DNA of 8,816 bases from Oscillospiraceae bacterium (lineage in GTDB: Bacteria; Bacillota_A; Clostridia; Oscillospirales; WRJC01). The translations under genes and the position numbers were made by a program. Location: positions 1 to 8,816 of the forward strand of contig WQXD01000151.1 in NCBI GenBank assembly GCA_009785015.1, given 5' to 3'. The notes under the pieces were generated by a model. The model was given only the letters and a program-made list of their open reading frames with translations. It did no database searches and was not told the DNA's origin. The number at the start of each line of letters is the position of its first letter. The first letter of the stretch is position 1. Shown one piece after another: positions 943-7,208 of the stretch.

Positions 943-990
943 AAAAATTAAAAATTAAAAACGGCTAAGGAGTTTATTTTCCCTTAGCCG
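943..990 (-). terminator. Intrinsic terminator, leftward
   Basis: A perfect 9-bp stem (CGGCTAAGG at 962-970 pairs with CCTTAGCCG at 982-990) has an 11-nt loop. On the minus strand it is followed by T5-AA-T5-AA-T5. On the plus strand the hairpin has no good T-run, so leftward termination is intended. It ends the transcript starting near 1342. The U-rich tail runs straight into the GGAGG of the methyltransferase gene. Confidence 0.85.
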
Positions 991-1045
991 CTTATTGTTT
1001 TTATAATCTGATATTATATTGTAATATCATAAAAACCAACAAGGA

Positions 1046-1165
1046 CTAAGCCTGTGTTTTCCCGCAGGATTCGCAGACGTAGCCGAATGACCGCATATAC
1101 AATTTTGTATAAATCTGTTCACAGCGCTTGCCCCTTTCGCATGGTATTGCTGCATAGTATAGCAT
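1046..1165 (-). CDS. Small cysteine-containing protein, 39 aa, hypothetical
   Basis: Seen: ATG at 1165, with AGGAG 8 nt upstream, opens 39 codons ending in TAG. The protein begins MLYYAAIPCERGKRC and ends SFGYVCESCGKTQA. It has four cysteines as C-x5-C (residues 9 and 15) and C-x2-C (31 and 34). The second pair sits in a YVCESCGK context like one knuckle of a zinc ribbon or rubredoxin-like fold, so metal binding is a reasonable inference. It lies inside a transcript with its own strong promoter and terminator. It is below usual gene-calling length. The 81-codon frame overlapping it in another register (1027-1272) has no good ribosome binding site and reads as low-complexity basic sequence, so I prefer this frame. 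The alternative is that the whole stretch is non-coding RNA and this frame is incidental. I do not recognise a family. Confidence 0.5.
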   Translation of the reverse strand: MLYYAAIPCERGKRCEQIYTKLYMRSFGYVCESCGKTQA

Positions 1166-1173
1166 ATCTGGAG

Positions 1174-1342
1174 CTCCTCATGCCTTTTTGGCAGAGGGTT
1201 CGGTCGTACTGGCAAGTCTCTCGCGTACCTCGAAAGATTTCGCGCACTACCTTGCTTCCCACCGACTTTCACTACCCATAACTTCCATTGAAGTCATTAT
1301 CGGTAGCATCGCGCCCGCTTCATGACGCTTTTTGCTTTGCTC
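1174..1342 (-). ncRNA. Structured RNA / leader of an independent transcript
   Basis: Seen: between the predicted start near 1342 and the small ORF lie about 170 nt rich in complementary segments. CTACC (1306-1302) can pair with either of two GGTAG copies (1276-1272 and 1251-1247). TCGGT near 1262 can pair with ACCGA near 1201, enclosing GCAAG/CTTGC, which encloses a short CGAA/TTCG hairpin. A further hairpin, CCTC-TGCC/GGCA-T-GAGG (about 1197-1176), ends on the AGGAG of the small ORF. This is far more structure than an ordinary leader. Inferred: an abundant structured RNA or a cis-regulatory leader. The length, strong promoter and host type recall the raiA-motif class of Firmicutes, but I cannot verify the consensus and the raiA/comFC neighbours are absent. 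It does not match tmRNA, RNase P RNA, 6S or T-box hallmarks I know. Confidence 0.5.
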
Positions 1343-1348
1343 TTATAC

Positions 1349-1397
1349 ATCATAGCACACAACAAACGATTTGTCAAGGGGTTTAGAGTATTTTTTT
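1349..1397 (-). promoter_or_regulatory. Strong sigma-A promoter with UP-like A-tract, leftward
   Basis: On the minus strand TTGACA (1377-1372) and TATGAT (1354-1349) are separated by exactly 17 bp. A run of seven A (1397-1391) lies about 14 bp upstream of the -35, where an UP element would contact the RNA polymerase alpha subunit. Predicted start is near 1342. A perfect -35 with a five-of-six -10 suggests high constitutive expression. Confidence 0.85.
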
Positions 1398-2442: not shown

Positions 2443-3258
2443 ATGAGTATCATAACCAAGCAGTTGACACAATGCGTACAAGGCAAACGAATCAAAGAAT
2501 TTAAGCACGAGGTTTTCCATGAGGGCGAGCGTCCGCTCGATTATACGGTCGTACTAGACAACCTCGATAAAATTGCCGGAACGGTTATAAAAAAAGCAGA
2601 TTCAAACACGTTATTTTTGGTCAACGGTTATATCGTCGCTTTCGGTTACAGCAACGGCGGAATACGATATTTCCCCGACATTTCGGAAGCGGAGATAATG
2701 AAAAAAGATAAGAATTTTATTACGAGCGGGTTTGCATTCATCTTTGTTTTTGATGATAGTTCCTGCTTGGTCATTTCGACGAACAGCTGGACGGGTTCAT
2801 TTCATGTGCTCCAATCGGCCGATTATATGCCGTCGGATAAAATAAGCCCATATGACCGCGAAAAATATACGCTTGACGCGTTTCGCCCGCATTTCCGAAA
2901 AAACATCGGCGTGACTGCCGTCTGCGTTACGTCGAAGGGATTTTTGGCCGTTGACCGGGGGCTTATGCACGAGGCATTGTTCAAGAGCGGCATACACCCG
3001 AAAACGAAGGCTTCCAAATTAACCGGCGATGAAGTCGAAATCTTGTATAGCGCGATAAAAGATATCGCAGACGATGTCATTTCGGCCGGCGGAAAAGCCG
3101 GCGACAGCGATTTGTTCGGGCAGACGGGCACATACGAATATTCCATCGGCTTGAAAGCGGTGGGGAACCCTTGCCCCGTATGCAAAACGGCCATCGAAAA
3201 AGCAAGCGCGTTTTTCAGTTCGATTTTCTTTTGCCCGCATTGCCAGATTGAAAAGTGA
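2443..3258 (+). CDS. Fpg/Nei-like DNA glycosylase-fold protein lacking the N-terminal catalytic Pro-Glu
   Basis: A 271-residue protein. Seen: an H2TH region with GIHPKTKASKLTGDEVEILY (about 183-202), an AGGK...DLFG stretch (217-226) typical of Firmicutes Fpg/Nei-like proteins, and a C-terminal zinc finger C244-x2-C247-x16-C264-x2-C267. Active family members start M-[PIL]-E-x-P-E, and Pro2/Glu3 do base excision and strand cleavage. Here the protein starts MSIITKQLTQCVQGKRI, aligning right after that PE block. An in-frame TGA lies two codons before the ATG and AGGA stands 7 nt before it, so no longer start exists. The G-N of the family's GxGN loop before H2TH is also missing (DRGLMHEALF instead), and the finger has Ser where E. 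coli Fpg has its DNA-contacting Arg. Glycosylase activity is therefore doubtful. It may be a DNA-binding pseudo-enzyme or an early-stage pseudogene. Confidence 0.82.
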   Translation: MSIITKQLTQCVQGKRIKEFKHEVFHEGERPLDYTVVLDNLDKIAGTVIKKADSNTLFLVNGYIVAFGYSNGGIRYFPDISEAEIMKKDKNFITSGFAFIFVFDDSSCLVISTNSWTGSFHVLQSADYMPSDKISPYDREKYTLDAFRPHFRKNIGVTAVCVTSKGFLAVDRGLMHEALFKSGIHPKTKASKLTGDEVEILYSAIKDIADDVISAGGKAGDSDLFGQTGTYEYSIGLKAVGNPCPVCKTAIEKASAFFSSIFFCPHCQIEK

Positions 3259-4816: not shown

Positions 4817-5891
4817 TCAAAACATATCCTCAAACCGGACAAGCCGGATATTTGCGCGTTTGTTTGCTTCGGTGACGAGTCTATCCGTAAAACCCGTTTT
4901 GGAAAATAACCAAAACCATTTATTTTTAAAATTAAACAAATCTGCTTTTCTTATCAATTCTGTCATCACCTCTGTATCCGTCAGCGCATTTGTCCACTTA
5001 CACTCGCAAAAAAGAGCGTTGTCCTTACGGTAGGTCAGAATGTCGATTTCTTCCTGTCGTTTTTCGCGCGGATTATTGCCCCACCATCTGCCGATTTTTC
5101 CGGGTAAAAACGGCAGATTATTTTTTTTCGCTTCTTCTTGCAGATATTGTTTGCATATTTCTTCGAAAACCAGTCCCATATATGCGGGGAGCTCTTCTTT
5201 GACTTCATATTCAAATACGGCGCCGCCCAGCCCCGATACGATACTGCTCATATTTGTGAAGACAAACCGATACCAAAATCTGAACATCAAGTCGTCCAGC
5301 AAATAAATGCTTTTTTTAGACGACGTTTCGGTGACGGGCAGTTCCTTTTTCACGATGCCGAGCGAAAGCAATGATTTAAGATATTTCGCGCATTTGTTGC
5401 TTTCTGTTTGGCACTTTGTGGCAATCTCATTCAACCGGGAAGCTCCGCTTGCGATAGCCTCTATGATATTATTAAAGGATTAAAAACAATTTTCTGTCCT
5501 TAAATTGGTTATCTATATGCGCCTGCAAAACAGAAGAAATCGGGCGATAACCTCCCGCAAGGAACGGGTATTCGTCTATAACTAATATGATTCTTTCGTT
5601 TTCAGATATTTGAGAGATATAATCAAAAGCACTTTCCCAATCGGAGAAGAAAGCGTTTTTAGCGAGTTCTTTCGCGGTAACGGAATAAACGTCGCCGCTG
5701 AATCCGTTGAGATTTGCCGATCCGTCCGTTTCGCGGGCGAGAAAATAGATTGCTTTTTTATCCTTTATAAATTCTTTGATGAGCGTAGTTTTCCCGACAC
5801 GCCGCCGTCCGTAAATAATAGCGCACTCAAATTTACCGCTTTCGTACATTTCATTAAGTTTTTTCAATTCTGTATTTCTGCCAATGAACAT
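4817..5891 (-). pseudogene. AAA/archaeal-type ATPase with C-terminal DUF234 nuclease-like domain, broken by internal deletion
   Basis: Seen: the 5' part (5891-5472, 139 codons) starts MFIGRNTELKKL with AAGG 9 nt upstream. It has Walker A GRRRVGKTT (28-36) and Walker B IILVIDEYPFL (101-111), and stops after KLFLIL. The reading continues one frame over with FNNIIEAIASGASRLNEIA and on to a stop at 4817. That part has a helical region, RFWYRF, then GLVFEEI, EEIDIL and FCECKW, the E..D..ExK pattern of the PD-(D/E)XK fold in DUF234. Known intact proteins (ATPase_2 plus DUF234) are about 450-470 residues. The two halves give about 360, so roughly 100 residues after Walker B (sensor, arginine-finger and linker region) are missing and the frame is shifted. 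The 3' half has no ATG; LNEIA begins with TTG. Family role is not firmly established. It sits between two copies of a ligase 3' end. Confidence 0.85.
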
Positions 5892-6046: not shown

Positions 6047-6131
6047 TTACCCCAGCTTCTCCAATTGATCCATGATTTTATCATTGGTCAGCGACCAGAT
6101 CCACTCCTGCGGAGTTTTGACCTTGCCGTCG
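6047..6131. repeat. Direct repeat: intact copy of the ligase 3' end
   Basis: This 85-bp segment is repeated at 4701-4785 in the same orientation, with 7 differences by hand count. Here it is the 3' end of the intact RNA ligase gene. The pair flanks the ATPase pseudogene and is a possible substrate for homologous recombination that would excise it. Confidence 0.85.
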
Positions 6132-7159
6132 TAATATATAAAGAAAAACGCGGGATATTTGGTTTTGGTCGCCATTTCCGCGAAATCTTTGCGCGTTTCG
6201 TATTGAACCGGTACGACCTTTTCCCGAATGACAGAATCGAGATATTTGGCAAGATTGTCTATTTTTTCTTTTAAAATTTCGATATGCGGCTTGTATTCGG
6301 GGAAATATGCCAAAAATTCGCCGGTTTCATTGGTTCGCAGCAATTCAAGCAGCCTCTTTTCGTTCATCCCGCTTATGAGATGGCTGATTGCCACATATGC
6401 CGGACTTTTCACTTTGATCCGTCTGTAATCCGCGTCTTTGACGACATATCCTTCCTCGCAGTACCGGAGTTTTGACGCCATCTCGATTAACAAGCTCAGA
6501 TTATTGCATTGATATGTCTTCGGTTTCTTGATTCCAATATCAATTTCAAGTTCTTTAAGCGATATATTATCTCTCGTTCCTATGTGATACAAGTCAATCG
6601 ATTCATATGGGACCACGACGCGGTTATACGGCGACACAAGCTCAAACATATATGTGTACTGCCCATTCAGCGAAGTCATATCAAGCCCGGCCTTGCCTGC
6701 CGCCGCTTCAAACAAGTCGCCGAAATTAGCATATGTCGTATCTATGGTCATTTCGTTGTCGGAATCGGAGCCGATGTTGGCCTTGTTCGCGAATATGGTT
6801 CCGTTGGTCGATACAATCCATTTTCCGTTGCAGTTCCAGACCTTGATCAGCGAGCCGTCGATTTTTTCCTCCACTTTCGCGGTAGTCCAGTCGATATTGT
6901 CCGCGTACGGCTCGCCGTAGTTCCCGAATTTATAAAAAGGCACGCAGACCGGATTCAGATTTTTATCAATAATCAGTCCGCGGCATTCCCGCACGATTTC
7001 GTCATTGAAATCGGAATCTATCTGGGAGTATTTCAGCAATATAAAGTCTCCGTCGTCCTTTATGGTTATATTGTATGGAGCTTTCGACAAAATCTCCCGC
7101 CAGTTCCTATTGTTTTTTATGTATTCCACTACTTTTACTATAGCGCCCACCTCACACAT
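6047..7159 (-). CDS. ATP-dependent RNA ligase, T4 Rnl1-like
   Basis: About 370 residues, close to T4 Rnl1 (374). In this numbering: RECRGLIID (about 57-65), KFGNYGE (77-83), nucleotidyl-transfer motif I EEKIDGS with adenylated lysine K99, motif III MFELVSP (171-177), motif IV EEGYVV (235-240) and motif V RRIKVKSP (246-253), followed by an alpha-helical C-terminal domain. Known chemistry: ATP adenylates the lysine, AMP is passed to an RNA 5'-phosphate, and it is sealed to a 3'-OH. T4 Rnl1 repairs nuclease-cut tRNA; the bacterial role is unclear and no polynucleotide kinase is adjacent. Start: the longest ATG (7189) lies inside the promoter spacer, so it is excluded. ATG 7159 would follow the predicted transcript start by only about 14 nt without a ribosome binding site. 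GAGGTG stands 6 nt before an in-frame ATA at 7141, where the alignment of T4-like proteins would begin. True start is 7159 or 7141. Confidence 0.87.
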   Translation of the reverse strand: MCEVGAIVKVVEYIKNNRNWREILSKAPYNITIKDDGDFILLKYSQIDSDFNDEIVRECRGLIIDKNLNPVCVPFYKFGNYGEPYADNIDWTTAKVEEKIDGSLIKVWNCNGKWIVSTNGTIFANKANIGSDSDNEMTIDTTYANFGDLFEAAAGKAGLDMTSLNGQYTYMFELVSPYNRVVVPYESIDLYHIGTRDNISLKELEIDIGIKKPKTYQCNNLSLLIEMASKLRYCEEGYVVKDADYRRIKVKSPAYVAISHLISGMNEKRLLELLRTNETGEFLAYFPEYKPHIEILKEKIDNLAKYLDSVIREKVVPVQYETRKDFAEMATKTKYPAFFFIYYDGKVKTPQEWIWSLTNDKIMDQLEKLG

Positions 7160-7179
7160 TGAAAATATATTTTGGAATA

Positions 7180-7208
7180 ATTTTACCATACAGGGCTGAA
7201 AATGTCAA
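7180..7208 (-). promoter_or_regulatory. Sigma-A promoter of the RNA ligase gene
   Basis: Minus strand TTGACA (7208-7203), 17 bp, TAAAAT (7185-7180); predicted start near 7173. It is divergent from the promoter at 7236-7264. Its spacer contains the ATG at 7189, so that codon cannot be translated from this transcript. Confidence 0.75.

Follow-up and report, generated by a model that had tools for sequence, protein, structure and literature searches.

The window analysed here, a stretch of 8,816 nucleotides from an Oscillospiraceae bacterium, carries on its minus strand, between positions 943 and 1397, a promoter (1377–1349), a densely folded segment (1166–1345), a 39-aa frame (1165–1046), and a terminator (990–957). 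A preliminary description had taken these parts for a self-contained transcription unit, which is not borne out: a class I SAM methyltransferase gene (929–129, minus strand; Pfam Methyltransf_25, E 5e-17) stands directly behind the terminator. It is followed by the start of a GNAT-like gene (129–1, minus strand) that is cut by the window end; this 43-aa piece gave no Pfam match by itself, and positions 62–143 of the window match at 82% the GNAT gene of L001, a related locus in an Oscillospiraceae MAG. On the far side of the promoter, a left-end palindrome of an IS200/IS605-type element (1534–1482, minus strand) lies between the end of a TMEM164-like gene and the leader promoter. The contig is bacterial-looking, and elsewhere it carries a divergent DNA glycosylase relative (2443–3258, plus strand; weak matches to Fpg/Nei-type H2TH and zinc-finger domains, under the Pfam cut-offs), an ATPase_2/DUF234 protein apparently split in two frames (4817–5891, minus strand; 5472–5891 and 4817–5434), and a T4 RnlA-like RNA ligase gene (6047–7189, minus strand; Pfam RNA_lig_T4_1) adjoining an aminoglycoside-phosphotransferase-like (APH) gene.

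Ahead of the methyltransferase gene lies a leader frame other than the 39-aa one, which starts with GTG and encodes 31 aa (1122–1027 including the stop codon, minus strand) behind the ribosome-binding site AAAGGGG (1137–1131), and which is conserved in ten copies, the window copy extending over 1137–957. The RNA can form a hairpin P1 (1078–1050), in which GUCUG (1078–1074) pairs with CAGGC (1054–1050) in 49 of the 50 cells of the ten-copy alignment, and a terminator (990–957) made up of CGGCUAAGG (990–982), CCUUAGCCG (970–962), and UUUUU (961–957), with 89 of 90 cells paired. The leader frame of the window passes P1 and the block CACAGGCUUAGUCC, and its stop codon lies 16 nt beyond that block. 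The pairing calculation points to a possible antiterminator (1050–983), in which CUUAGUC (1050–1044), contained in the block, pairs with GGCUAAG (989–983) of the terminator 5′ arm (70 of 70 cells); terminator and antiterminator are mutually exclusive through this shared arm, weakly so in L001. The terminator is present as first described, and a simple terminator scan did not list it because its loop of 11 falls outside the scan range of 3–8.

All ten copies have AAAGG, a GTG frame of 26–35 aa, and a stop codon 7–29 nt past the block AGGCUUAGUCC, which contains one extra U in L017, two in L030, and AGCCC in L022. The stop codon 29 nt past the block is that of L007; a ribosome sitting on it might leave the block uncovered. 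In the ten copies AGGC falls in all three reading frames, frame 0 (five copies), frame 2 (three), and frame 1 (two), so that conservation is stronger for the nucleotides than for the residues; the extra U leaves AGUCC with only two reading frames. The leaders end in the SP type in six copies and in the LVLFDFYK type in four, the ending (V)LxDFYK is shared by four of the ten, and some constraint on the peptide is possible from these sequences. Compared across the homologous loci, where the preliminary description had expected compensatory changes and conserved signals, the terminator is kept in all ten, with one compensatory change in its arms, in L029, and promoters precede the relatives too, at another place. 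Because most pairs are invariant, covariation is weak, and the alignment shows pairs that are consistent more than strongly covarying.

In RNA that stops short of the terminator 3′ arm, the expected antiterminator pairing is above the mean of the shuffles in nine of the ten copies; it is reached by 0 to 17 of 200 shuffles in nine copies and by 186 of 200 in L001. With the 3′ arm present, the terminator takes 7.8–8.9 of its 9 pairs in all ten. Under free translation of the leader, ribosomes would occupy the block, the terminator would form, and transcription would stop near 957. If ribosomes were slow or stalled early in the leader, as an inhibitor of translation might cause, the RNA would form P1 and the antiterminator instead, and the methyltransferase and GNAT-like genes would be transcribed. 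Most likely, the attenuator responds to ribosomes that are slow or stalled by permitting transcription of the methyltransferase operon. Control by the ribosome is a reading of the anatomy rather than a computed result, because L022 is the one copy in which hiding the first 30 nt greatly alters the pairing prediction. We give a probability of about 0.7 to the reading that the window holds a ribosome-dependent transcription attenuator preceding the methyltransferase operon, as judged from sequence comparison and predicted pairing. The riboswitch-type leader controlling a peptide, as suggested earlier, is thereby kept as a regulatory leader, with the downstream methyltransferase and not the 39-aa peptide as the most likely regulated gene.

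The ten copies are distributed over the window (one) and four genomes, G001 (four, L001 and three more), G171 (three), G005 (one), and G081 (one). In L001, positions 331–572 match window positions 1167–925 at 78%, and the match ends beside the fold. Model R1 reached E ≤ 0.001 in six cases among 295 genomes of the order, and at least four genomes were retained, a minimum with ten candidates scored per genome. G146 and G147 were dropped as attenuator genomes, their sequences lacking the motif, as were the opposite-strand match L027 in the order-wide search and L027 and L038 in the family of G001. The attenuator was found in two of the 18 genomes of the family of G171 and in two of the three of the family of G001, and the exact pattern occurs in one of 391 genomes of the class, G001 itself, in three copies. 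IMG/VR gave no match to the attenuator pattern. A methyltransferase scan of genome contigs yielded three loci, L001, L002, and L003, of which the latter two had no match to the leader model. The family looks narrow on this sequence evidence. The nine other loci with copies have no Rfam family at the gathering score, and keyword searches of open PMC papers found no description of the leader. The attenuator is a known kind of regulatory leader, and its family has no Rfam match.

A same-strand gene lies directly downstream in all ten copies, within 183 nt, with the next gene defined as the first frame that reaches 120 aa in the following 420 nt. It is a methyltransferase gene in six (the window, L016, L021, L022, L026, and L029), a GNAT acetyltransferase gene in two (L001 and L017), and a 4Fe-4S protein gene in L030; in L007 it is cut by the contig end, has no Pfam match, follows an ABC transporter gene, and by eye likely encodes a second subunit of an ABC exporter. 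In L001 the order is leader, GNAT, and methyltransferase, and in the window leader, methyltransferase, and GNAT-like start. As to antibiotic resistance, the domains identified downstream are methyltransferase and GNAT domains only, no specific resistance family reached its cut-off, and the best solved relatives are small-molecule methyltransferases.

The spacing of these genes bears on a rather unlikely alternative, a free-standing small RNA gene in which promoter, fold, and terminator would yield a single stable RNA with no role for the leader frame. The housekeeping-like promoter, the strong fold, and the terminator do form a layout common to stable RNA genes. However, the nine other copies lack the fold and still conserve the leader frame and terminator, and the terminator stem ends 14–39 nt ahead of the next gene in eight of the ten copies, the distance being 176 nt in L030 and 183 nt in L029. 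With the attenuator as the preferred reading, one apparent translation-stress signal would govern genes for methyltransferases, acetyltransferases, a likely exporter, and a redox protein through a family present in up to four copies per genome, and it becomes testable whether these bacteria rely on a common ribosome sensor in small-molecule defence.

The 39-aa cysteine frame, which the preliminary description had counted as part of the unit, is open at 1165–1046 on the minus strand, but nothing marks it as a gene. A search with the 43-aa stop-to-stop frame covering it found no homologue, and the 39-aa frame itself has no match in Pfam or NCBIfam. In L001, the nearest relative, a stop interrupts it after 22 codons, and in L017 after three; an ATG stands at the place of its start in three of the ten copies. 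This ATG falls on the last bases of the spacer in the relatives' promoter, right before the −10 element (ATATGTTATACT in L001). From these comparisons the peptide looks spurious, and it probably does not belong to the leader. The dense fold, likewise counted in the unit, is real as a structure and lies outside the conserved regulator, whose regulating elements are the other leader frame and the terminator. A conserved regulator can hence be masked by a neighbouring spurious peptide and a separate fold.

The near-consensus promoter of the minus strand is present at 1377–1349, with −35 TTGACA (1377–1372), a 17-nt spacer, and −10 TATGAT (1354–1349) preceded by TG, matching 11 of the 12 consensus positions and predicting an RNA start near 1342. 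By consensus alone it is not beyond chance, because the scan of the window finds one such promoter and shuffles average 1.5. A genome search with 1166–1535 as query found, in relatives, five promoter-like places that match this region over 33–49 nt at 78–91%. It resembles the housekeeping promoters of the clade, as the five include places upstream of the genes of ribosomal proteins L13 (L092) and L32 (L096), a TetR-like protein (L090), and tRNA-Leu (L091). An assignment of 1377–1349 as a tnpA or tnpB promoter was considered and dropped. At 1164–1156 (minus strand) the window also has TG-C-TATACT, which in the alignment is the extended −10 of the relatives' promoters, and it has no −35 to go with it. 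Presumably, the relatives' promoter was displaced in the lineage of the window by a block that contains a promoter of housekeeping type and a closed 172-nt RNA domain, and the present transcript would probably begin near 1342, with this domain as a 5′ extension.

The claim of a structured RNA was confirmed for the minus strand of 1166–1345, which folds at −61 kcal/mol against −45.4 (s.d. 3.7) for dinucleotide shuffles (z −4.24; none of 200 as good), and the plus strand folds less well (z −2.36; 5 of 200 as good). The domain itself (1342–1171, minus strand) is closed by pairing of 1342–1339 with 1174–1171 at probabilities of 0.98–0.99, and only 2.2 pairs are expected between domain and attenuator, against 49.2 and 63.2 within them. 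It sits between the present promoter and the start of the attenuator-family homology, which in L001 begins at 1167, four bases beyond the domain end, and none of the nine other attenuator copies has it.

Relatives of the domain were sought widely. None was found in phages or in the three genomes of the family of G001, and the three matches in the 18 genomes of the family of G171 do not pass its first bases. Among plasmids, one search returned seven Rhizobium records (E 0.4) whose 28-nt match lies outside the domain, and a second search gave 19 records with a best E of 2. In the 295 genomes of the order, blastn gave one match at E ≤ 0.01, 33 nt lying, by eye, within a PhoH-like gene, and a covariance model made from the single sequence of the window gave one at E 0.009, a value that chance explains when 295 genomes are searched. 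The domain together with its flank matched ten places in seven of these genomes, three at the left end, two at another repeat, and five at the promoter, and none reached into the domain past the promoter edge. No Rfam family reaches the gathering score anywhere in the window. At E ≤ 10, the sole overlap with the domain is a snoRNA family (1329–1357, E 9.8), and five matches far under threshold overlap the terminator on either strand, the best being mir-268 (E 0.021, 25.5 of 47 bits) and caiA (E 0.095); all are taken as chance.

These results weigh differently on the identities conceivable for the domain. That it is a raiA motif RNA (ModT), as the preliminary description had guessed, is scarcely credible, since beyond the clostridial setting and the length nothing speaks for it, and the raiA covariance model finds no match in the window, whether at the gathering score or at E ≤ 10. 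A riboswitch-like sensor acting jointly with the attenuator would suit a closed multi-helix domain that follows right after the predicted start and folds independently of the leader, but with no relatives and no Rfam match there is no covariation to draw on, and we consider such a sensor improbable.

The immediate surroundings of the domain contain remains of a mobile element. At the left-end palindrome (1534–1482), TTATCA is followed by a hairpin GGCGTAA...GGGGATATAAGCC, so that a palindrome stands behind TTAT/TTAC as in left ends of this type, and the same hairpin also precedes a tnpB gene in a phage. The left-end pattern was found in 41 IMG/VR loci and is followed by a tnpB-like frame in 19 of them, and the best matches in a set of 44 loci were L041 and L049 (E 7e-13). 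A 38-nt piece (1467–1430, minus strand), apparently a dispersed palindromic repeat, matches two places in G005 (L089 and L094) at 92%. As a side observation, L088 (about 1501–1640) and L041 (about 2241–2700) contain short elements in which left and right ends of IS200/IS605 type enclose a guide-RNA-like stretch, with no tnpA or tnpB frame of the usual length, one site lying in a chromosome (G038) and the other in a viral contig.

The first rival for the origin of the domain is an element remnant: the domain would be the right-end part, bearing the guide RNA, of an IS200/IS605 element whose genes were lost and which landed in the attenuator promoter, with 1534 to about 1170 forming one element. 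Short elements without tnpB do exist, as left and right ends lie 130–340 nt apart in six IMG/VR loci and L088 shows the same by eye; the left end at 1534–1482 is clear, and the hairpin 1201–1174, placed where the family homology breaks off, is similar to right ends (equalled by 2 of 500 shuffles and by none of 84 other window stretches). On the other hand, a profile of 16 right ends misses this hairpin and finds the left end, the usual GTCAA end is absent there, the best match of the domain to element loci is a 13-nt word in L070 (E 0.59), and the repeat 1467–1430 and the housekeeping-like promoter lie in between. We regard this origin as doubtful, and our own guess is that the domain is a by-product of rearrangement at the site of the mobile-element remains and may shield the 5′ end of the leader RNA. 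There is a slim chance that the 172 nt represent either an undescribed RNA family, with a housekeeping-like promoter and fused to the ribosome-sensing attenuator, or a guide RNA that came from a lost IS200/IS605 element and now serves as the 5′ part of an operon in the chromosome; in the case of an undescribed family, two RNA signals would converge ahead of one terminator.

Collectively, most of the parts first described in 943–1397 are present, but they make up two separate things, a probable attenuator and a folded RNA, rather than one unit. The mef(E)/mel attenuator (PMC4335068), which precedes a resistance operon, is like the window in combining a promoter and a short leader peptide with alternative hairpins and a Rho-independent terminator. 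Its leader, MTASMRLR, contains a known macrolide stall site, whereas the leaders of the window family have 26–35 aa without such a motif and differ in RNA sequence. In rli80-hflXr of Listeria (PMC6310831), a constitutive short RNA carries a small ORF that spans an anti-antiterminator, together with an antiterminator and terminator as in the window; its ORF of 14 aa has an RLR motif, which none of the ten leaders contains, and the window family precedes another gene class. The folded domain shares with the raiA motif or ModT RNA (PMC11706538) the nature of a structured RNA of Clostridia, the domain being without an Rfam match. Finally, the IS200/IS605-derived PATE elements (PMC3119063) resemble 1534–1482 in a near-terminal palindrome of IS605 type without a transposase gene, whereas the window has no convincing right end and contains another repeat and a housekeeping-like promoter inside.
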